Shown: positions 5,182 to 50,398 of the stretch, one piece after another
How the letters are laid out: the number at the start of each line of letters is the position of its first letter
How positions within the stretch are numbered: the stretch's first letter is position 1
Assembly: GCF_009733845.1 (NCBI RefSeq)
Contig: NZ_WNXZ01000003.1
Location: 310,001-374,000 of the forward strand
Direction: 5' to 3'
Length of the DNA stretch: 64,000 bases
DNA from: Pseudactinotalea terrae
GTDB taxonomy: Bacteria; Actinomycetota; Actinomycetes; Actinomycetales; Beutenbergiaceae
The notes under the pieces: generated by a model
Database searches by the model: none
What the model was told of the DNA's origin: nothing
The model's input: only the letters and a program-made list of their open reading frames with translations
Translations under genes and position numbers: made by a program

Positions 5182-5723
5182 TGCCGGATCGCCGTACGCG
5201 GATGCTCGACGCCGCCCTCGCCATCGTGGGAGAGAGCGGCACGAGGGGGCTCACCCACCGCGGGATCGACCGTCGCCTGGAGGTGCCGGACGGGAGCACC
5301 TCCAACTACTTCCGCACCCGCCGCTCGCTGCTGGTGGGCACGATGGAGCGGCTGCAGGAGGTGGACCAGGCCACGCTCACGGAGATCCACCGCGGGTTCA
5401 AGAAGATCGACGACGTCGGTCTCGCTGCTGCGCTCGCCGAGTTCGCGGTGCGTCAGTGCCGGCCGTCCGCGATCACGCGCGCCCGTGCTCGCTTCGCGCT
5501 GACGCTCGTGTTCCCCGAGCGCCTCGGCGGGACGCTGCGAGCCTGGCTGAAGCTCGGCGTCGCGAACCTGGGGCACGCCAACCCGGACGCCCTGACCCGA
5601 GCGCTGCTCGCCTACACCGAGGGCGTCATCTACCAAGCGATCCTCGACACCGGCGGCAAGGGCACCGAGCTCGACCGAGACGAGGTCGCCTGTCACGCCC
5701 TCACCTTGATCCGTGGGGTCTGA
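5181..5723 (+). CDS. TetR-family transcriptional regulator
   Basis: A 180-residue regulator. Residues 1-50 form the TetR DNA-binding domain (MPDRRTRMLDAALAIVGESG, then a recognition helix region with TSNYFRTRRSLLVG). The remainder is an all-helical ligand/dimer domain with no recognisable ligand signature. The ATG at 5181 is chosen over one at 5121 because of the TACGCT box six bases upstream and because the family N-terminus starts there. It sits 56 bp after the MMPL gene and may add a second layer of control. Its end overlaps the xthA GTG by 11 bases. Confidence 0.85.
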   Translation: MPDRRTRMLDAALAIVGESGTRGLTHRGIDRRLEVPDGSTSNYFRTRRSLLVGTMERLQEVDQATLTEIHRGFKKIDDVGLAAALAEFAVRQCRPSAITRARARFALTLVFPERLGGTLRAWLKLGVANLGHANPDALTRALLAYTEGVIYQAILDTGGKGTELDRDEVACHALTLIRGV

Positions 5724-6540
5724 GCCGCTCACCGTCGCCACCGTCAACGTCAACGGGATCCGCGCGGCGTTCCGGCGCGGGATGCCCGCTTGGCTGACGG
5801 CGAGCCAGCCCGACGTGCTGCTGCTGCAGGAGGTCCGCGCACCCAGCTCGATCCTCACCGAGCATCTCGGGCCCGACTGGCACCTCGTGCACCACGAGGC
5901 TCCGACCGCCGGGCGCGCCGGCGTGGCGATCGCCTCCAGGCTCGCGTTCCAGGCAGTGCGGCTCGGGCTGCCCGGGGAACCGACCGAGAGCGTGGGTCGC
6001 TGGGTCGAGTCCGATCTCCTCATGCCCGACGGCGAGACCCTCACCGTGATCTCGACCTATGTCCACACCGCGACCGCGCGCACGCCGTCGATGGCGGTCA
6101 AGCTCGCCTTCCTCGAACGAGCTACCGCGAGGCTGGCCGAGCTGGCCGAGGGCCGTGCGGTGCTGGGCGGCGACCTCAACGTGGCCCACGACGAGCGGGA
6201 CATCAAGAACTGGAAGGGCAACCGTGGCAAGTCGGGCTTCCTGCCGCAGGAGCAGGCGTACCTGACGCGCTGGCGCGAGCTCGGCTGGGTCGACGCCGCG
6301 CGCACCTACGCCGGTGATGTCGAGGGGCCCTACACCTGGTGGTCCTGGCGCGGCCGCGCGTACGACAACGACGCGGGGTGGCGCATCGACTACCTGTGGT
6401 GCTCGGCCGCGCTCGCGCCGTCCGTGCGTGAGGTCACGGTCGACCGCGCGCCCGGCTATGAGGGTCGCTGGTCGGACCACGCCCCCGTGAGGGCTGTGCT
6501 CAGCCAGCGCGACCCGCTGGGCCGCCGGGCGTCGCGATGA
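5713..6540 (+). CDS. xthA: Exodeoxyribonuclease III
   Basis: A 275-residue endonuclease/exonuclease/phosphatase-fold enzyme that cuts DNA 5' to abasic sites and trims 3' ends in base-excision repair. Catalytic motifs are in order: VNVNGIRAAF (Asn near 12), LLLQEVRA (metal-binding Glu40), GGDLNVAHDERDIKN (Asp154, Asn156), RIDYLW and the terminal SDHAPV (catalytic Asp-His). Start GTG 5713 overlaps the TetR gene. The 3' end overlaps the convergent galK by 41 bp, so the last 13 codons of each gene are antisense to each other. Confidence 0.93.
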   Translation: MGSEPLTVATVNVNGIRAAFRRGMPAWLTASQPDVLLLQEVRAPSSILTEHLGPDWHLVHHEAPTAGRAGVAIASRLAFQAVRLGLPGEPTESVGRWVESDLLMPDGETLTVISTYVHTATARTPSMAVKLAFLERATARLAELAEGRAVLGGDLNVAHDERDIKNWKGNRGKSGFLPQEQAYLTRWRELGWVDAARTYAGDVEGPYTWWSWRGRAYDNDAGWRIDYLWCSAALAPSVREVTVDRAPGYEGRWSDHAPVRAVLSQRDPLGRRASR

Positions 6541-42110: not shown

Positions 42111-45008
42111 TCAGGGGACCCCGGCCAGCCCGCACTGCGCGAGCAACTGCTGGGAGCGGGCCTCGTCGGAGGCCGACTCGGCAACGTCACCTCGATCCCG
42201 CAGCAGCTGCGAACGCGCCGCCAGGGCCCGGGCCTCGTTCTCGGCCATCCCGACCCGACGGGAGCGAGCGACGGCGTCGTCGAGCAGCCGGAGGGCCTCG
42301 CTCTGGTCGGTGGCAGCGGTCACGGTGGCGAGGCCGACGAGTGAGCGGGTGAGCTGGTCGTCGTCGTGGAACCGGCGGGCCTTCTCGACCGAGCTCGCCA
42401 GCCAGAGCTGTGCACTCTCAGGCTCCTGGAGCTGCAGCATCGACATACCGATCACCCACTCGAACTCCGCCTCCTGGGTGATCGCGCCGAGCTCGGCCGC
42501 CGCCTCGAGTGCCCGGCGCGCCGTCGCGATGGCCTCCTCTGGGCGGCCCTGCAGCATCTGTAGCCAGGCGAGCGATCCAAGGGCCTCAGGCAGCCGCCCC
42601 AGGTGATCGGTGCGCTCGCCGGTCAGGTCCTCGACCTGCGCCACCAGATGCGGCTCGGCCTCGTCGAGCCGACCCAGCCGTGCCAGCGTGAAGCTCACGT
42701 TGCCGAGCGCCAGTGCCTGGCGCGCCTCGTCGTTGCCCTGCTCGCACCAATGGGCGCTGGAGCGGTAGGCATCCAACGCGTCCTGCAACCTCCCCGTCTT
42801 CTCGAGAAAGATGCCGTACTGGTTGCATGCGACGGCCATCTTGATCGGGTTGTCGGCCGCGTCGGCACAGCGCATCGCAGCGATCAGATGCTGTCGCGCC
42901 CCCTCATGGTCCCCGGTCCGGGTCGCGATCGACCCGAGCGACGCATGGGCCGAGGCGGCGCCACCGGGGTCATCGGTGCGCGCCGCCGCCTCGAGGGCAG
43001 CGGTGTGGAGCGCTCGACCGATCTCGTGGTTGCCGCTGCGCAGGATCAGCAGCGGGATCGCACGCGAGATGAGGATGAGCGACCCCGCCGCCTCGTCGGG
43101 TGCGTGGTCGATCGCGGCCATCAGGGGCCCGAGCGCAGCCAGCAGCCACTCCCGGGCCGCACCCCCGTCGGCGAACCGCTCCGACGCGGCCCCCTCCTCC
43201 AGCACCCCGATCGCCTCGCGCACGAGGCCCGCGTAGCAGGCGAGCAACCGGACGCGGGATGCCTCGCGCTGCTGCTCGCTCCCGAGGTCGTCGGCGCACT
43301 CGCACGCGTAGGCGGCCACGAGGTCGTGCTGACGCACCCACCGCCCCTCCGTCTCGGCGAGGTGCGCTCGCCGCAGTGCCGCGATCGCCACGGCTGTCCG
43401 CCGGTGGTCGAGGCCTGCGAGCGCTGCGACGCCCTCGACGTCGACCGCGTTGCTTCGAGCCAGCCCGATGGCGGTGAACACCGTGACCGCATCGGGCGGC
43501 ACTGCTCGCAACGACCAGGAGAGCACCTCGCGGGCGCTGCTGCGCCGGTCACCGAGGTCCCAGAGGTCGAGCGTGGTGCCGTCGAGGTGAGAGTCGGACA
43601 GCGCGGCCAGGGCGCCCGGGTCCTCACGGACACGCTCACCTGCGAGCTTGAGCATGAGAGGCATGTACCCGCAACGTCGCGCGAGGTCGGTCCACGCCGG
43701 GTCGTCGTGCGCGCCGGCAGCACTGCCCCGCAGCAGGGAGACCGCCGTCTCCTCGTCGAGCCCCGGCAGCGCGAGGTGGAGCGCGTCCTCGCGCACGCAG
43801 AGCCCGCTGAGGCGTTCCCGGCTCGTGACGAGCACGCGAGTGCCCGGCGTACCCGGCAGCAGCGGCCGCACCTGCTCGACGTCGCGGGCGTTGTCGAGCA
43901 CCACCAGCGCGCGCCGACCCGCCAGCAGGCTGCGGTAGGTCGCGGCCCGTTCGTCGAGGTCGTGCAGGCTCGCCGGGTCGCCACCCAGCGCGCGGATGAA
44001 CCCGTTGAGCGCGCGCTCCGGGGCGATCGGGGCGCCGGCGCTGTAACCGTGCAGATCGACGAACAGCTGGCCGTCGGGGAAGTCGTCACGGTTCTCGTGC
44101 GCCCAGCGAAGTGACATCGCGCTCTTGCCCACACCGGGCGGGCCGCAGATCACGGCGACGCGCGGGGCGCCGTCGCCCTCGCCGAGCAGAGGCGCGAGCG
44201 AGTCCATCGCCTCGCCGCGACCGACCACCTCGGTCGCACCCGGGAGCTGGGCCGGCACGAGAGGCGGCTGGTCGGCCGGGGTGCCGGTGAGCACGAGATC
44301 CTGCACGGCTGCGAGATCGGCAGAGGGTTCGAGGCCGAGCTCGCGTACCAGCAGCCTGCGCGTGCTCCGGTACACCTCCAGGGCCTCGTTCCGGCGGCCT
44401 GCCTGGTGGAGCGCGCGCATCAGCAGGGCCTGCACGGTCTCCCGCAGCGGGTGCAGCCGCGCCAGCACGGTCAGGTCGGCGAGCGAGTCGAGATGCCGCC
44501 CGTGCCGGACCGCTGCGGCCAGGTCGACCTCGGCCACCTCGAACCGGAGCGTCTCCAGACGCTCGGCCTCGTCCCGGCAGATCGGGACGTCGACGCCCTC
44601 GTACGCTCGGGCCGACCAGTCCGTCGGCCACTCCTGCAGGGCAGCGTGCGCCGCCTCCGCCCTGACCGTCTCGTCCGCCGAGCTCAGCGCCGTCCGTGCG
44701 AGATCCTCGAACCGCTGCGCGTCGAGGCCGCCCGGGAGGACACGCAGCTCGTACCCGCCGTCATGGGCGATCAGTGCACGGGGGTCGCTCAGCTCGTTCC
44801 GGAGTCGATGGATGTGAACGTGCAGCCGCTGCTTGGCCCGGTCCTGCGCCGCTCCGGGCCAGAGTGCGTGCCACAGCACGTCGCCCGGCACCTGCTGACC
44901 TGCGCGTGCCAGCAGCACCGCGAGCAGGCGACGGCGGAGCTCGCCGCCAGGTTGGACCCACGACTCCCCGGTGTGATGAGCCACGGGTCCGAGCACGCGA
45001 AACCGCAC
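42111..45008 (-). CDS. AfsR/SARP-type regulator: wHTH-BTAD, NB-ARC and TPR domains
   Basis: A 965-residue multidomain regulator. Residues 1-95 are an OmpR-like winged helix (VRFRVLGPV ... QRLHVHIHRLR). Residues of about 97-245 are the bacterial transcriptional activation domain. Residues 265-560 are an NB-ARC ATPase with Walker A CGPPGVGKSAM (288-298), Walker B ALVVLDNARD and LVTSRERLSG. The last 280 residues are TPR repeats. Such proteins integrate signals through the ATPase and TPRs to activate secondary metabolism or stress genes. GTG 45008 has GGGGAGGT upstream. It is divergent from the HAD gene; no biosynthetic cluster is present. Confidence 0.92.
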   Translation of the reverse strand: MRFRVLGPVAHHTGESWVQPGGELRRRLLAVLLARAGQQVPGDVLWHALWPGAAQDRAKQRLHVHIHRLRNELSDPRALIAHDGGYELRVLPGGLDAQRFEDLARTALSSADETVRAEAAHAALQEWPTDWSARAYEGVDVPICRDEAERLETLRFEVAEVDLAAAVRHGRHLDSLADLTVLARLHPLRETVQALLMRALHQAGRRNEALEVYRSTRRLLVRELGLEPSADLAAVQDLVLTGTPADQPPLVPAQLPGATEVVGRGEAMDSLAPLLGEGDGAPRVAVICGPPGVGKSAMSLRWAHENRDDFPDGQLFVDLHGYSAGAPIAPERALNGFIRALGGDPASLHDLDERAATYRSLLAGRRALVVLDNARDVEQVRPLLPGTPGTRVLVTSRERLSGLCVREDALHLALPGLDEETAVSLLRGSAAGAHDDPAWTDLARRCGYMPLMLKLAGERVREDPGALAALSDSHLDGTTLDLWDLGDRRSSAREVLSWSLRAVPPDAVTVFTAIGLARSNAVDVEGVAALAGLDHRRTAVAIAALRRAHLAETEGRWVRQHDLVAAYACECADDLGSEQQREASRVRLLACYAGLVREAIGVLEEGAASERFADGGAAREWLLAALGPLMAAIDHAPDEAAGSLILISRAIPLLILRSGNHEIGRALHTAALEAAARTDDPGGAASAHASLGSIATRTGDHEGARQHLIAAMRCADAADNPIKMAVACNQYGIFLEKTGRLQDALDAYRSSAHWCEQGNDEARQALALGNVSFTLARLGRLDEAEPHLVAQVEDLTGERTDHLGRLPEALGSLAWLQMLQGRPEEAIATARRALEAAAELGAITQEAEFEWVIGMSMLQLQEPESAQLWLASSVEKARRFHDDDQLTRSLVGLATVTAATDQSEALRLLDDAVARSRRVGMAENEARALAARSQLLRDRGDVAESASDEARSQQLLAQCGLAGVP

Positions 45009-45033: not shown

Positions 45034-45072
45034 AGCGTACTCACCGTGCGGTCGTGAAAGCGAGGAGAAAGC
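45034..45072. promoter_or_regulatory. Candidate SARP box in the regulator/HAD intergenic region
   Basis: TGAAAGC (45055-45061) and AGAAAGC (45066-45072) are heptamer direct repeats exactly 11 bp apart, the geometry bound by SARP regulators. On the minus strand TACGCT (complement of 45034-45039) is a possible -10 for the regulator's own gene. A matching pair is found before the LysE gene. Confidence 0.5.
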
Positions 45073-45093
45073 CGGCCCACGCAGGGTGTCCAC

Positions 45094-45885
45094 ATGAAGC
45101 TCCGGACCGGGCCCGCATCCCGTCTGCTGGTGGTGTGCGACATCGATGGCACCCTGACGTTCACCGGCCGACGGCCCGAGCCACGCGTGCTCGCCCAGCT
45201 GGTGGCGCTGGCATCCCGCGGGCCTCGCGTGAGGATCGCCGTGGCGACCTCACGATCCTCCCGCAACGTGCTGGCCTGGTTTCCCGAGCTCCTTCACCGG
45301 CTCGACCGCATCTGCTGCCACGGTGCGCTGACGATCACCGCGGACCGCATCTCGCGTGTGCCGGTGCCGGTCGAGTCCCTCGAGGTCGTCGTCGGGCGAC
45401 TGGCGGACCTCGGCGCCGACTACTGCCTCGAGCGCGGCACACACTTTGCCGCGAGCGATGCTGGCGCGCTGCCCTGGCTGGGAACGACGCACCGCTACGT
45501 GCTCCCCGGCCTGCCCGCGCGCTCTGACCTGACCGGCGTCGTCATGTGCAGCGTGGCCGATGCCGAGCAGGCTGCCGAGGCTGTGCGCGACGTGGCGGGT
45601 GTCAGCCTCGTCCCGAACGCCGGCCACGCCGACGTCGTGGCTGCCGGTGTCGACAAGGCGCGTGCGCTCGCCGAGCTGCGCGAGCCGGACGACCATGTCG
45701 TGGTGCTCGGCAACGACCACGAGGACCTCCCGATGCTGCTCGCGGCCGATCGGGCCTACGTCGTCGGCGGCGACCTCGCGGGTCTCGACGAGCTGCCGCA
45801 CATCAGCCGAGCTCCCGCGACCGCGATCGGGGTCGGGGACGTGCTCGCCCAGCTGGAGCTGCCCGCACTACGCTCAGCGCTGTGA
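45094..45885 (+). CDS. HAD-superfamily hydrolase (Cof/SPP-like)
   Basis: A 263-residue phosphatase-like protein with all four HAD motifs. They are CDIDGTLTF (nucleophile Asp16, Asp18), IAVATSR, a Lys in VDKARAL and VVLGNDHEDLPML with the metal-binding acids. A cap domain lies between motifs II and III, as in sucrose-phosphatase or Cof-type enzymes. The substrate is a small phosphorylated metabolite, not identifiable. Its stop overlaps the add start by GTGA. Confidence 0.85.
   Translation: MKLRTGPASRLLVVCDIDGTLTFTGRRPEPRVLAQLVALASRGPRVRIAVATSRSSRNVLAWFPELLHRLDRICCHGALTITADRISRVPVPVESLEVVVGRLADLGADYCLERGTHFAASDAGALPWLGTTHRYVLPGLPARSDLTGVVMCSVADAEQAAEAVRDVAGVSLVPNAGHADVVAAGVDKARALAELREPDDHVVVLGNDHEDLPMLLAADRAYVVGGDLAGLDELPHISRAPATAIGVGDVLAQLELPALRSAL
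45869..45882 (+). promoter_or_regulatory. Possible internal leaderless promoter of add
   Basis: TACGCT (45869-45874) inside the end of the HAD gene is seven bases before the add GTG, so add may also be transcribed on its own. Confidence 0.4.
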
Positions 45886-46982
45886 CGTTGACCCAGGACC
45901 AGATCCGCACCCTCCCCAAGGTCGTGCTGCACGACCACCTCGACGGCGGCCTCCGCCCGGCCACGATCATCGAGCTCGCTGCCGAGATCGGCCACGAGCT
46001 GCCGACGACGGACCCGGCCGAGCTCGCCCAGTGGTTCGTCGACGCGTGCACCTCCGGGTCGCTGGTGCGGTACCTGTCGACGTTCGCGCACACGTGCGCC
46101 GTCATGCAGACAGCGCCGGGGCTGCGCCGGGTGGCGCGTGAGTCGGTCGTCGACCTGGCCGCGGACGGCGTCGTCTACGCCGAGCAGCGGTACGCGCCCG
46201 AGCAGCACCTCGAGAGGGGACTGACCCTCCAGCAGGTGGTCGATGCCGTCGAGCAGGGATTCGCCGAGGGCGTGGCCGAGGCGGCGGAGAACGGCCACAC
46301 CATCCGGGTGGGGACCCTGCTCTCGGCGATGCGGCAGAACAGCCGCAGCGACGAGATCGCGCAGCTGGCGATCGAGAACTACGGTGCGGGCGTCGTTGGA
46401 TTCGACATCGCCGGGCCCGAGGACGGCTTCCCGCCCACCCTGCACTCTGCCGCCTTCACGACGCTGCGCAAGAACCACGTGCCGGTCACGATCCACGCGG
46501 GCGAGGATGCGGGGTTCTTCTCGATCGACCAGGCTGTCATCGACTGCTACGCCCTCCGCATCGGTCACGGGGTGCACATCATCTCCGACGTCACCACACC
46601 CGCGGGGGCCGATCCCAGCGACATCGATGCCGCTGAGCTCGGTGTCACCGCAACCTGGGTGCGCGACCGCCAGATCCCCCTCGAGGTGTGCCCGACGTCG
46701 AACATCCAGACCGGCACGTCGCCCTCGATCGTGGAGCACCCGATCACGCGCCTGCGCGACCTGGGCTTCGCCGTCACCATCAACACCGACAACCGGCTGA
46801 TGTCAGGCACGTCGATGAGCCGGGAGATGTCGCTGCTGGTCGACCAGGCTGGCTGGGAGCTCGCCGACCTCGAGCGCGCCACCCTCACTGCGGCGTGGAA
46901 CGGGTTCGCCCACCACGACGTGATGGAGGACATCATCACGAACCAGATCATCCCGGGGTACGCCGCCATCATCGGCGACTGA
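45882..46982 (+). CDS. add: Adenosine deaminase
   Basis: A 366-residue TIM-barrel zinc enzyme that converts (deoxy)adenosine to (deoxy)inosine. HDHLDGG (His17, His19) binds zinc, VTIHAGEDAG supplies the zinc His and the catalytic Glu, IGHGVH and ITINTDNRLMSG complete the active site (Asp pair region). GTG 45882 overlaps the HAD stop. It complements the cytidine deaminase and phosphorylase encoded 14 kb away. Confidence 0.93.
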   Translation: MTLTQDQIRTLPKVVLHDHLDGGLRPATIIELAAEIGHELPTTDPAELAQWFVDACTSGSLVRYLSTFAHTCAVMQTAPGLRRVARESVVDLAADGVVYAEQRYAPEQHLERGLTLQQVVDAVEQGFAEGVAEAAENGHTIRVGTLLSAMRQNSRSDEIAQLAIENYGAGVVGFDIAGPEDGFPPTLHSAAFTTLRKNHVPVTIHAGEDAGFFSIDQAVIDCYALRIGHGVHIISDVTTPAGADPSDIDAAELGVTATWVRDRQIPLEVCPTSNIQTGTSPSIVEHPITRLRDLGFAVTINTDNRLMSGTSMSREMSLLVDQAGWELADLERATLTAAWNGFAHHDVMEDIITNQIIPGYAAIIGD

Positions 46983-47036
46983 TCTCGGCAGTCGACCCCC
47001 TGGGGCCTCGCGCCGGGAATGTGCGCGGCCGCGCCT

Positions 47037-47042
47037 ACGCTG
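47037..47042 (+). promoter_or_regulatory. -10 box upstream of the amino-acid binding-protein gene
   Basis: TACGCT is followed by a 31-base stretch to the TTG start that includes the ribosome-binding site GAGAGGA, so this promoter would give a normal leadered mRNA. No clear -35 is visible. Confidence 0.4.
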
Positions 47043-47073
47043 AACAGCGGGAACACGACCGAGAGGACCTTCC

Positions 47074-47943
47074 TTGCGACCTGCTACGCGCGCGCTGACC
47101 GGGGCGGCTGCTCTGCTGCTCCTCGCTGCCTGCTCCACCGCTGGTGATGGCTCGCCGGGCGAGAGCGCCACCGACGGAGCCTCCGACGGCGGAGCCACCT
47201 CGTGCGAGCCCGGTGCCCTGCCGACGCTGACCGAGAGCACCCTCACGATCGGCACGAGCGTCCCCTACGAGCCCTGGTACGTGGGGGAGGACCCGAGCAG
47301 CGGCGAGGGCTTCGAGTCCGCGCTGGTCTACGCCGTGGCCGAGGAGCTCGGCTACGCAGCACAGGATGTCACCTGGGAGACCGTGACCTTCGAGCAGATC
47401 GTCGCGCCCGCCACCAAGCCGTTCGACTTCGCCGCGTACCAGACCTCGATCACACCCGAGCGGGAGCAGGCGGTCGACTTCTCCAGCCCGTACCTGACCA
47501 CCCGGCAGGGCGTCGTGGTGCAGGGCGAGGGCGACCTCGCCGACGCCACCACGATCGCCGAGCTCGAGGGCGCCAGGATCGGCGTCACCGCCTCGCAGAC
47601 CTCGCTGACGATCGCTGAGGCCGCCTGGGGCGACGCCGTGGAGCTGGTCCCGTACGACGACGCCGGCCTCGCGATGCAGGCGCTCAGCAACGACCAGGTG
47701 CAGGCGGTGGTCATGGACGTGGACCAGGCCGTGGCGGCTACCACGGTGTACTTCCCGGGCACCTCGGTCATCGGGACCCTGCCCGACGGCGGTGTGGTCG
47801 AGCAGCTCGGCTTCGTCCTCGACCTCGACTCGCCGCTGACCGACTGCGTCTCGGCCGCCGTCGACGCCCTCGAGGAGGACGGCACCCTGGCCGACCTCCG
47901 CACCGAGTGGCTCAGGTCCGACGACATCCCCGAGCTCGGCTGA
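47074..47943 (+). CDS. Polar amino-acid ABC transporter substrate-binding lipoprotein
   Basis: A 289-residue family-3 solute-binding lipoprotein. The signal ends in LLLAAC (Cys20). The mature part has LTIGTSVPYEPWYV, GFESALVYAVAEELGY and the TPEREQAVDFSSPYLTT segment that bind amino acids. A TTG start at 47074 is supported by GAGAGGA six bases upstream. The permease and ATPase follow after an intervening LysE gene. Confidence 0.9.
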   Translation: MRPATRALTGAAALLLLAACSTAGDGSPGESATDGASDGGATSCEPGALPTLTESTLTIGTSVPYEPWYVGEDPSSGEGFESALVYAVAEELGYAAQDVTWETVTFEQIVAPATKPFDFAAYQTSITPEREQAVDFSSPYLTTRQGVVVQGEGDLADATTIAELEGARIGVTASQTSLTIAEAAWGDAVELVPYDDAGLAMQALSNDQVQAVVMDVDQAVAATTVYFPGTSVIGTLPDGGVVEQLGFVLDLDSPLTDCVSAAVDALEEDGTLADLRTEWLRSDDIPELG

Positions 47944-47992
47944 GCGCGTCGCGTGCCGAGGCGGGCACGCCGTCGGGGCGAACGCGCTCCGG

Positions 47993-48010
47993 TGAAAGCG
48001 CGACGAAAGC
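47993..48010. promoter_or_regulatory. Second candidate SARP box upstream of the LysE gene
   Basis: TGAAAGC (47993-47999) and CGAAAGC (48004-48010) are direct repeats exactly 11 bp apart, matching the pair at 45055-45072 in sequence and spacing. They lie about 80 bp before the LysE ATG in a non-coding stretch. Confidence 0.45.
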
Positions 48011-48091
48011 GTCGCTCGGAAACCTGGGCGGGTCAGCGTCCGGGCACCTGCGTTCAGGCAGCTCGGGCGATCGTGCCCACCGGGAGCTGCG

Positions 48092-48721
48092 ATGCCCGTG
48101 CCCAGTCCGGAGACGACGCTGGCGTTCCTTCTCGCCACGGCAGCCGTGGTGGTGATCCCGGGACCGTCGGTCGCCTTCGTCGTGGCGCGCAGTGTGCAGC
48201 AGGGCACTCGGGCCGGTCTCGTCTCGGTGCTCGGCCTGGAGACCGCGGCGGCTGTCCACGCGGGTCTGTCCATCGCCGGCGTGGCCGCGCTGCTGGAGCT
48301 GGTACCGATGGGCGTGCAGCTGCTCTCCTGGGTCGGAGCGGGCTACCTCCTCTGTCTCGCCGCGCTCGCGCTGCGCCGGGTCCGACCGCCCACGAGCGGT
48401 GGCTCCCTCGGGGCGCCGGTGCGTCGAGGTCGGTTGTTCCTCGAGGGGTTGCTCGTCGACCTCCTCAACCCGAAGACCGCCCTGTTCTTCGTCGCGTTCC
48501 TGCCGCAGTTCGTGGAGCCCGAGCGGGGGCCGGCCACCACCCAGGTCGCGCTGCTGGGAGGGGCGTTCGTGCTCGTGGCGTGCGTGTGCGACAGCGCCTA
48601 CGCCCTGCTGGCCGGCCGGCTGTCGGAGCGACTGCGCGCCTCCCAGTCGGCGCAGCGCCGGCTGGCGAAGATCTCGGCGGGCGTGTACCTGGCCCTGGCG
48701 GTGACAGCCGTCGCGGTATGA
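48092..48721 (+). CDS. LysE/RhtB-family amino-acid exporter
   Basis: A 209-residue membrane protein with about six hydrophobic helices. The start PETTLAFLLATAAVVVIPGPSVAFVVARS carries the PGP motif of the family, and GLLVDLLNPKTALFFVAFLPQF is the second conserved block. It exports amino acids or related compounds. GGGAG precedes the ATG. It stands between the binding protein and permease of an amino-acid importer. Confidence 0.9.
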   Translation: MPVPSPETTLAFLLATAAVVVIPGPSVAFVVARSVQQGTRAGLVSVLGLETAAAVHAGLSIAGVAALLELVPMGVQLLSWVGAGYLLCLAALALRRVRPPTSGGSLGAPVRRGRLFLEGLLVDLLNPKTALFFVAFLPQFVEPERGPATTQVALLGGAFVLVACVCDSAYALLAGRLSERLRASQSAQRRLAKISAGVYLALAVTAVAV

Positions 48722-48756
48722 GGCCAGCGACACCTGGCGTGCGCCAGAATGTGGCG

Positions 48757-48786
48757 GTGGAGCGCGGCAGAGGGGGCGAGGGGTGA
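48757..48786 (+). CDS. Short leaderless leader ORF (9 codons) coupled to the permease gene
   Basis: CAGAAT (48745-48750) is six bases before a GTG that opens MERGRGGEG. The TGA overlaps the GTG of the permease gene (GTGA at 48783-48786). The pattern matches the leaders at 7825 and 40466. The frame is very short; its GAGGGG also serves as a ribosome-binding site for the permease, so the arrangement may be accidental. Confidence 0.35.
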   Translation: MERGRGGEG

Positions 48787-49640
48787 CCTGGGAGCCCTCA
48801 CCGGTCGCCGTCGAGCGGGAGCGGTACCGCTCCCGACGGCGACGGCGCTCGTTCCTGCTCGCGCTCGGCTCGACGCTGGTCCTCGTGGTGGCGGCCGTCC
48901 TGGTGGTGATCACGTCCCCGGGCTGGGAGCGGACCCGTAGCTCCTTCTTCGACCTCGACGTCGCGACCGAGGTGCTGCCCGGGCTCGTCCAGGGCCTGTG
49001 GCTGAACCTGCGGGTGTGGGTCCTTGCCGTGGTCATCTCGCTCACGCTCGGTCTCGGGCTGGCGATCCTGCGCACGACGGCGTACCCCGTGCTGTTCCCG
49101 CTGCGCGCCCTGGTCGCGGCGTACGTCGACATCTTCCGTGGGCTGCCGCTGCTGCTCGTGCTGCTTCTCGTGGGCTTCGGGCTGCCCTCGCTGCGGCTCT
49201 CGTGGTTGCCGATCGATGCCGTGTACCTGGGCACCGGTGCCATCGTGCTGACCTATACCGCCTACAGCGCGGAGATCTTCCGCGCCGGCATCGGCGCGGT
49301 GCACCCGGCACAGGTGACGGCGGCGCGGGCACTGGGACTGACCCGCGCGCAGACCACGCGCCGGGTGGTGGTGCCGCAGGCGATCCGCAACACCACCCCC
49401 GCGCTGCTGAACACGGTGGTCTCCCTGCAGAAGGACTCAGGGCTGATCTCGATCCTGGGTGCGGTCGACGCGATCCGGGCCGCCCAGATCGAGGTGACCG
49501 GGGCCTACAACTTCACGCCGTACGTGGTCGCGGGCGTGCTGTTCCTGCTGATCTCGATCCCGCTGACGCGCGCGGTGGACGCCTACAGCGAGCGGCGCGG
49601 CTGGGGCGCCACCCGACCGGCAGCGGGCGTGGCGAGATGA
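48783..49640 (+). CDS. Polar amino-acid ABC transporter permease
   Basis: A 285-residue HisM/GlnP-type permease. An Arg-rich cytoplasmic tail and a first helix (SFLLALGSTLVLVVAAVLVVI) precede the conserved core of about five helices. It has YVDIFRGLPLLLVL and the EAA-like loop VTAARALGLTRAQTTRRVVVPQA near residue 190. GTG 48783 is set by GAGGGG upstream. A single permease implies a homodimer. Confidence 0.92.
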   Translation: MTWEPSPVAVERERYRSRRRRRSFLLALGSTLVLVVAAVLVVITSPGWERTRSSFFDLDVATEVLPGLVQGLWLNLRVWVLAVVISLTLGLGLAILRTTAYPVLFPLRALVAAYVDIFRGLPLLLVLLLVGFGLPSLRLSWLPIDAVYLGTGAIVLTYTAYSAEIFRAGIGAVHPAQVTAARALGLTRAQTTRRVVVPQAIRNTTPALLNTVVSLQKDSGLISILGAVDAIRAAQIEVTGAYNFTPYVVAGVLFLLISIPLTRAVDAYSERRGWGATRPAAGVAR

Positions 49641-50398
49641 CCGCGCAGGTGAGCGACGTCGTCGAGAACCCCGATGCGAGCGCGGTACTGAGCGTGCGCG
49701 GGCTGCGGCTGCAGTACGGCGACCGCGTGGTGCTCGACCGGCTGAACCTCGAGGTCCGCGAGCACGAGTGCGTCGTGCTGCTGGGGGCCTCCGGGTCCGG
49801 CAAGTCGACGTTGCTGCGTGCGATCGACCTGCTCGAGGACGTCCAGGACGGCGTGATCGCGCTGCGCGGCCTCGACGTGACCGACCCGCGCGTGGACGCC
49901 GACGCCGTGCGGGCACGGCTGGGGCTGGTGTTCCAGGCCTTCAACCTGTTCGGCCACCTGAGTGTGCTCGACAACCTCACGCTCGCGCCGCGGTTGGTGC
50001 ACCGGCTGCCGCGCGCCGCCGCGGAGCAGGCTGCGCTGCAGATGCTGGAGCGGGTCGGGCTGGCGGGGCGGGAACGGGCCTACCCCGAGCAGCTCTCGGG
50101 CGGCCAGCAGCAGCGGGCGGCGATCGCGCGCGCCTTGGTGACCTCTCCCGATCTGCTGCTGCTCGACGAGGTCACCTCCGCGCTCGACCCCGCGCTGGTG
50201 GGCGAGGTGCTCGAGCTGCTCGCCGATGTCCGCGCGGCCGGCACCACCATGCTCGTGGCCACGCACGAGCTCGGCTTCGCACGCCGCGTCGCCGACCGGG
50301 TGTGCTTCCTGCACGAGGGCCGGGTGTGGGAGCAGGGACCGCCCGAGATCATCGACGCGCCGACGACCCCGGAGCTCGCTGCCTTCCTCGGCCGCTGA
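49637..50398 (+). CDS. Polar amino-acid ABC transporter ATP-binding protein
   Basis: A 253-residue GlnQ-type ATPase with Walker A GASGSGKST, Q-loop QAFNLFGHLSVLDN, signature LSGGQQQRAAIARAL, Walker B LLLDEVTSALDP and the switch His in ATHELGFA. ATG 49637 overlaps the permease stop by ATGA. It completes the amino-acid importer. Confidence 0.94.
   Translation: MTAQVSDVVENPDASAVLSVRGLRLQYGDRVVLDRLNLEVREHECVVLLGASGSGKSTLLRAIDLLEDVQDGVIALRGLDVTDPRVDADAVRARLGLVFQAFNLFGHLSVLDNLTLAPRLVHRLPRAAAEQAALQMLERVGLAGRERAYPEQLSGGQQQRAAIARALVTSPDLLLLDEVTSALDPALVGEVLELLADVRAAGTTMLVATHELGFARRVADRVCFLHEGRVWEQGPPEIIDAPTTPELAAFLGR

Follow-up and report, generated by a model that had tools for sequence, protein, structure and literature searches.

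Which genes does a large AfsR-like regulator govern, and can its operators be recognized in the surrounding DNA? The question is raised by a 64,000-nucleotide stretch of the Pseudactinotalea terrae genome (the window, in whose coordinates all positions are given), where a gene of the Streptomyces antibiotic regulatory protein (SARP) family lies beside a direct repeat of GAAAGC and a second such repeat precedes a gene for a LysE/RhtB-family exporter (lysE). A first-pass annotation had proposed that both repeats are SARP operators serving a small regulon, which would comprise the SARP gene itself, a HAD hydrolase gene together with the adjoining adenosine deaminase gene (add), and amino-acid export, but no biosynthetic cluster. 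From the layout and distribution of the repeats, we consider it probable that the adjacent AfsR-like SARP uses them as its operators, through which transport and HAD genes would be activated.

Two GAAAGC repeats ahead of HAD and lysE

Candidate operator 1 (TGAAAGC-N4-AGAAAGC, 45055..45072, plus strand) consists of TGAAAGC at 45055-45061 and AGAAAGC at 45066-45072, and lies between the start of the SARP gene (45008) and the start of the divergently oriented HAD gene (45094). Candidate operator 2 (TGAAAGC-N4-CGAAAGC, 47993..48010, plus strand) consists of TGAAAGC at 47993-47999 and CGAAAGC at 48004-48010, between the stop of a substrate-binding protein (SBP) gene (47943) and the start of lysE (48092). 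Both were followed through scans of the window, the genome and the family. The units are of the TGAAAGC type on one strand and the GCTTTCA type on the other, and their register is exactly 11 bp in each case, in agreement with SARP-type operators, which are direct repeats 11 or 22 bp apart.

At both operators, an NANNNT hexamer stands 9 nt 3' of GAAAGC: the -10-like CAGGGT (45082..45087, plus strand), situated 6 nt before the ATG of the HAD gene, which is apparently leaderless, and the -10-like AAACCT (48020..48025, plus strand) before lysE. Measured from the end of the heptamer GAAAGC(C/G), either hexamer is 8 nt away, which is the SARP-type spacing between the 3' repeat and the -10, and the hexamers resemble a -10 only to the extent of NANNNT. 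AfsR promoters likewise carry 11-bp repeats, the 3' repeat lying 8 bp from a poor -10, CACTGT (PMC10936776, available text). The repeats and hexamer of operator 1 are oriented towards HAD and not towards the SARP gene, for which the candidate -10 read from the sequence, TACGCT (45034..45039, minus strand), lies 16 nt from the repeats rather than at the operator spacing of 9. Moreover, SARP relatives in other genomes have no such site ahead of the SARP gene itself, save in one operon (G548, below). These observations weaken the case for SARP autoregulation made in the first-pass annotation, while the operator geometry that it described holds, and HAD and lysE remain the predicted targets, each being preceded by the site and the hexamer.

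The pattern GAAAGC-N5-GAAAGC with at most one mismatch matches the window twice, against 0.04 matches expected, and two or more matches were seen in none of 100 shuffles. Within the whole genome (G000; 4,758,154 bases), the exact pattern occurs in two places only, both in the window and both intergenic, an outcome that favors the proposed operators. Allowing one mismatch gave 2+2 matches against 2+3 for the reversed control. We rule out a broader population of degenerate GAAAGC matches here because the counts at up to two mismatches (58+51) equal those of the reversed control (55+56). A look-elsewhere scan covered all hexamers with at least three A/T at spacings of 8-24 in the window and was compared with 12 Markov-1 resamples. 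The window contains three recurring composites (each present on the other strand too), of which GAAAGC at 11 is the sole one with that spacing, and the resamples yielded 0-2 composites each, none at spacing 11.

The SARP gene (42111..45008, minus strand; GTG start read as 45006-45008) encodes a winged helix, a BTAD domain, a nucleotide-binding domain (NOD) and TPRs. Trans_reg_C and BTAD score above their Pfam cut-offs; in the C-terminal part TPR_12 does so as well, and AAA_22 and AAA_16 are significant but below theirs, giving the NOD-TPR architecture. Residues 2-835 align to AfsR structures (E 2e-73), but the score against the NCBIfam AfsR equivalog NF053617 is 336.9 bits where the cut-off is 1430, which places the protein outside AfsR proper. 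Of the three BTAD genes in the genome it scores highest and is the sole high-scoring one. The predicted targets are a HAD-IIB (Cof-type) hydrolase gene (45094..45885, plus strand; Pfam Hydrolase_3) and lysE (48092..48721, plus strand; Pfam LysE, E 4e-31). The lysE product falls below every specific NCBIfam cut-off and is assigned at the family level only, so that the proposed amino-acid export stands as regards the exporter family and not as regards its specificity.

Co-occurrence of the site with SARP relatives

The sites, their geometry, their co-occurrence with the regulator and their conservation could be read directly from related genomes. We scanned 24 family genomes for the composite pattern GWAAGN6GWAAGN11ANNNT, with the reversed pattern as control, and obtained 22 exact unique matches in 10 of the 24 genomes, against 2 for the control. 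The composite site is present in all nine genomes with a full-length SARP relative (E at most 4e-66, against 5e-24 for the next-ranking family match) and in one of the 15 others (Fisher 7.6e-6), and within genus g7 in three of three SARP-bearing genomes against none of five others (p 0.018), p values that are optimistic because the genomes are related.

The genes that follow the 22 sites encode major facilitator superfamily (MFS) proteins (5), small secreted proteins of one type (5), a short membrane-like protein of genus g4 (3), subtilases (2), amino acid permeases (2) and, at one site each, HAD, lysE, an RNHCP protein, a 72-aa open reading frame (ORF) and a methyltransferase-like ORF; the Pfam scans covered representatives of these targets, and "secreted", "membrane" and "methyltransferase" are our readings of the sequences. 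At 11 of these sites the hexamer is followed, 6 or 7 nt on, by an ATG, and the set of 22 as a whole fits putative SARP operators built into weak promoters that would often be leaderless. The paralogous small proteins preceded by SARP-type sites in g7 (G020:C18, G023:C39, G022:C2:817238 and 2554132) carry apparent signal peptides and a CPSGAVC(I/V)YP motif, and no Pfam family was found for the two that were scanned, for which reason an initial idea that they might be I36-type inhibitors was dropped.

A second scan, with the pattern GWAAGN6GWAAG, covered 21 loci (283 kb) around SARP genes and returned 8 matches in seven loci, where shuffles average 0.017 pairs. All eight pairs are followed by an NANNNT-type hexamer at the same spacing. 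Unmatched at that strictness were L057, L061, L062, L065, L066, L211-L216 and L265-L267, of which L061 is cut off by the end of its contig, short of the MFS promoter. The site type thus recurs beside SARP relatives in other genomes, as the first-pass annotation required of conserved operators. In genus g4, TGTAAGC-N4-TGTAAGC precedes an MFS-HAD operon convergent with the SARP gene. In genus g7, the site is found immediately 3' of the SARP gene and ahead of an amino acid permease gene, whose ATG is 7 nt after the hexamer; this applies to G022 and G023 and, with one mismatch, to G020. A repeat conserved at the SARP promoters of g4 and g7 themselves was sought and rejected, none being found there; the sites precede the neighboring transport operons.

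The link to lysE recurs in G548, from another family of the same class, where an FAD oxidoreductase gene, lysE (50% identical to that of the window) and a full-length SARP gene form an apparent operon (L272, G548:C5, 5497-10516). This operon, of which SARP is the last gene, is preceded by TGAAAGGAAGAAGAAAGA, then 9 nt, then GACTGT, and its SARP is 36% identical to that of the window overall and 41% over the DNA-binding part. The FAD oxidoreductase weakly matches tryptophan halogenase, and the operon could be a small unit for biosynthesis or detoxification. In G018, the lysE homologue nearest to that of the window (56%) is divergent from a small SARP gene, with CGACAGC-N4-TGACAGC between them. 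We tested and rejected a general LysE-SARP pairing: among 98 loci found by tblastn (window-derived and overlapping ones included), a BTAD match was obtained only at the G018 place, in two overlapping loci, and 15 class-level loci added one further case, G548; most loci were flanked by 5 kb or 1.5 kb depending on the search, and a more distant SARP would escape. No GAAAG pairs were seen by eye upstream of other lysE homologues. A SARP-based search for related loci returned 12 stretches that matched a pattern, with no relative among them.

Recognition helix, proposed mechanism and rival explanations

In AfsR, Thr88 and Arg92 contact bases, and Ser91 and Arg94 are among the residues contacting the backbone (PMC10936776, available text). 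The corresponding helix reads [ILV]-H-R-[LMV]-R in the SARPs of the window, g4, g7, G009, G548, G285 and G379, such that Arg92 and Arg94 are kept, Ser91 is replaced by His, and Thr88 by Val or Leu. The window protein has Val, and the base-contacting pair of AfsR itself is therefore retained only at Arg92. Other SARPs in our 27-row alignment have Ser, Cys, Ala or Gly at the His position. Most His-helix proteins group in a tree with modest support (90/87), the four G009 proteins standing apart, and the branching does not settle the place of the window protein inside the group.

We then turned to G379 and G285, two genomes with His-type helix SARPs that the scans above had not covered broadly, for a forward test, which bore out the prediction in one genome and not in the other. 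G379, from another family, has exactly one match in 40 kb around its SARP gene when C is admitted at the second base as well. It precedes an operon convergent on SARP, in which an MFS gene (55% identical to its G018 counterpart) comes first and a HAD gene (44% to that of the window) second, and the set L318-L321 gave no match in 100 shuffles. Homologues 44-45% identical to the window HAD are found in MFS-HAD operons of both g4 and G379. The best reading of these data is a SARP subfamily with its own recognition helix and operator, the latter placed mostly ahead of genes for transporters, HAD hydrolases and small secreted proteins.

Binding, activation, an inducer and the physiology are what we infer from this pattern, and the mechanism class is known. 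One SARP protomer would occupy each 11-bp unit (core T-G-W-A-A-G-C), and the side-by-side pair would take the place where sigma region 4 binds the -35, recruiting RNA polymerase to the poor NANNNT -10 that lies 9 nt downstream. The direct regulon in the window genome would then be HAD, with its leaderless start, and lysE, while add may be reached by read-through from HAD, and the permease and ATPase genes downstream of lysE by read-through from lysE. By analogy with other STAND activators, some inducer and ATP would presumably be sensed through the nucleotide-binding domain and TPRs.

Several observations weigh against this reading. There is no match in 80 kb around the SARP gene of G285, despite the same helix signature, and no site in the SARP neighborhoods of G009, G097, G084, G136 and G001, the three sites of G009 lying elsewhere. 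One genome, G002, is the sole exception to the co-occurrence, with one composite site and no full-length SARP relative, and the relatedness of the genomes flatters the Fisher values. In G018, the lysE promoter TAGGTT is 9 nt past a degenerate further unit and not past the clear pair. The genome itself holds only two matches, and its one- and two-mismatch counts equal the control, which is what repeats arising by chance among many possible patterns would produce. Such an origin is nevertheless scarcely credible in view of the 0.04 matches expected in the window, the look-elsewhere scan, the 22 matches against 2 in the family, the link to SARP and the match in G379.

Nor does the geometry belong to SARPs exclusively, as OmpR-type regulators such as PhoP and GlnR also use 11-bp direct repeats, and the lysE repeat holds on its minus strand TTTCACC, which by eye is loosely similar to the usual PHO-box consensus. 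PhoP and GlnR are, however, general in actinobacteria, whereas the sites discussed here track the SARP type (nine of nine genomes against one of 15), adjoin SARP genes and occur just twice in the genome. Although AfsR and PhoP sites overlap at afsS (PMC10972967, available text), we consider it quite unlikely that the repeats belong to a regulator of this kind. It is also improbable that the SARP, bound at operator 1, controls its own gene by repression or autoregulation, with HAD as a bystander. Operator 1 does overlap the -35 region of the plausible SARP promoter defined by TACGCT, and a negatively acting SARP, Atr32, has been reported (PMC10972967, available text), but the orientation of the repeats and their spacing to the hexamer follow HAD, lysE, MFS and permease genes and not SARP genes. 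We therefore retain the reading of both repeats as probable activating operators of the adjacent SARP.

The recurrent pairing of a HAD hydrolase with an efflux-type transporter suggests, as a matter of speculation, a role in detoxification or overflow that would resemble in its logic the sugar-phosphate response of Escherichia coli. We put forward, tentatively and with considerable doubt, that SARPs of the [ILV]-His-Arg/TGWAAGC subfamily might serve a metabolite-overflow response rather than antibiotic synthesis. The NOD-TPR part would sense an accumulating (phosphorylated) metabolite and induce a HAD phosphatase and an exporter, whose type (MFS, LysE or permease) would be exchanged from lineage to lineage, from mostly leaderless promoters, with operator and promoter forming a portable cassette that new targets could acquire.

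Known systems, neighboring genes and locus history

AfsR of Streptomyces coelicolor, with its afs box (PMC10936776, available text; PDB chains 8k60_I, 8jke_I, 8hvr_I), resembles the window SARP in its SARP-NOD-TPR order, in the 11-bp direct repeats before a poor -10 and in helix residues Arg92 and Arg94. It differs in operator core (CGTTYATCG, against TGWAAGC in the window) and in target (afsS, against HAD and lysE), and the window repeats lack the CGTTYATCGNN units of the afs box consensus (PMC10972967, available text). The same text describes heptameric direct repeats in an 11-bp register, overlapping the -35 region, for small cluster-situated SARPs such as ActII-ORF4 and DnrI. Unlike these, the window SARP is large and its scanned neighbors are without biosynthetic genes; none was found among the immediate neighbors scanned (HAD, A_deaminase, SBPs, LysE, permease), no cluster finder having been applied and the window not being fully annotated. 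EmbR of Mycobacterium tuberculosis has a non-antibiotic role, its targets being cell-wall genes. It too combines a winged helix-turn-helix with BTAD (PDB 2fez) and matches the window SARP (E 2e-13), with an FHA domain in the place of NOD-TPR (PMC10936776, available text).

In the MFS-HAD operons of g4 and G379, a HAD-IIB phosphatase is coupled with an MFS protein of the efflux type, an arrangement comparable to YigL and SetA in E. coli. In that distantly related bacterium, the phosphatase YigL and the exporter SetA belong to the sugar-phosphate stress response, under RNA-based control. LysG is a LysR-type regulator and not a SARP. LysG-LysE type pairs (PMC5648196, available text) offer a parallel, that of a regulator acting on a LysE-family exporter, as we propose for the window SARP. 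We found the operator, the helix signature, the non-antibiotic regulon and the TGAAAG-SARP link nowhere in the papers we searched, all of them open-licence full text. SARPs have been studied almost wholly as antibiotic switches, and a subfamily recognizable by its helix and operator, with compact regulons of transporter and HAD genes, would allow function to be predicted from sequence. A system of two sites would also suit the study of signal sensing by STAND-SARPs, and such a subfamily would caution that a SARP gene is not always a beacon for a biosynthetic cluster. In G009, by way of observation, four large SARP genes lie within 19 kb (L065, G009:C1:3450000-3469000), with no composite site in the locus.

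The add gene (45882..46982, plus strand; A_deaminase) overlaps the HAD stop and carries a -10-like TACGCT just before its GTG, within the last codons of HAD (45868-45890). The genus mates G001 and G002 have TACGCT and TACCCT, respectively, before the GTG of add. Of the proposed HAD-add unit, HAD is upheld as a target; add keeps its own -10-like element and therefore may be only partly under the HAD promoter. In both genus mates, SARP and HAD are absent at the locus, and the sequences corresponding to 42097 and 45868 are joined across a spacer of ~117 bp in G001 and ~32 bp in G002. The 3' end of HAD appears to finish inside the older add promoter (TACGCT before GTG, as in G001).

Downstream of lysE lie an ABC permease gene (48783-49640; BPD_transp_1) and an ATPase gene assigned from its ORF alone, together spanning 48783..50398 on the plus strand, and upstream, between add and lysE, the SBP gene. 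Genus g4 has no lysE between the SBP and permease genes, which adjoin each other, and in G001 a different LysE-family gene (36%) occupies the slot on the opposite strand (L243, G001:C17, ~5587-6171). What is left of lysE in G002 is a degraded fragment (72% over 99 bp, E 9e-10), preceded by TGAGAGCGCCAGGAGAGC, then 9 nt, then CAGCGT; we infer that this repeat is orthologous to operator 2, the BLAST alignment stopping short of it. The genus mates lack intact orthologues of HAD and lysE at the corresponding positions. Within the genus, the SBP-permease slot (window 47944-48782) is thus occupied in two genomes by LysE-family genes that are not orthologous and face opposite ways, and in a third (G002) by the degraded lysE. 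Finally, the 17-mer GAAAGTGCGTTGAAATC is identical at at least 12 places in G000, outside the window (for example C8:69312-69356 and C9:232364-232408), some of which have a pair of copies at a distance of 28 bp, and similar sequences occur in G001, as in an interspersed repeat family.

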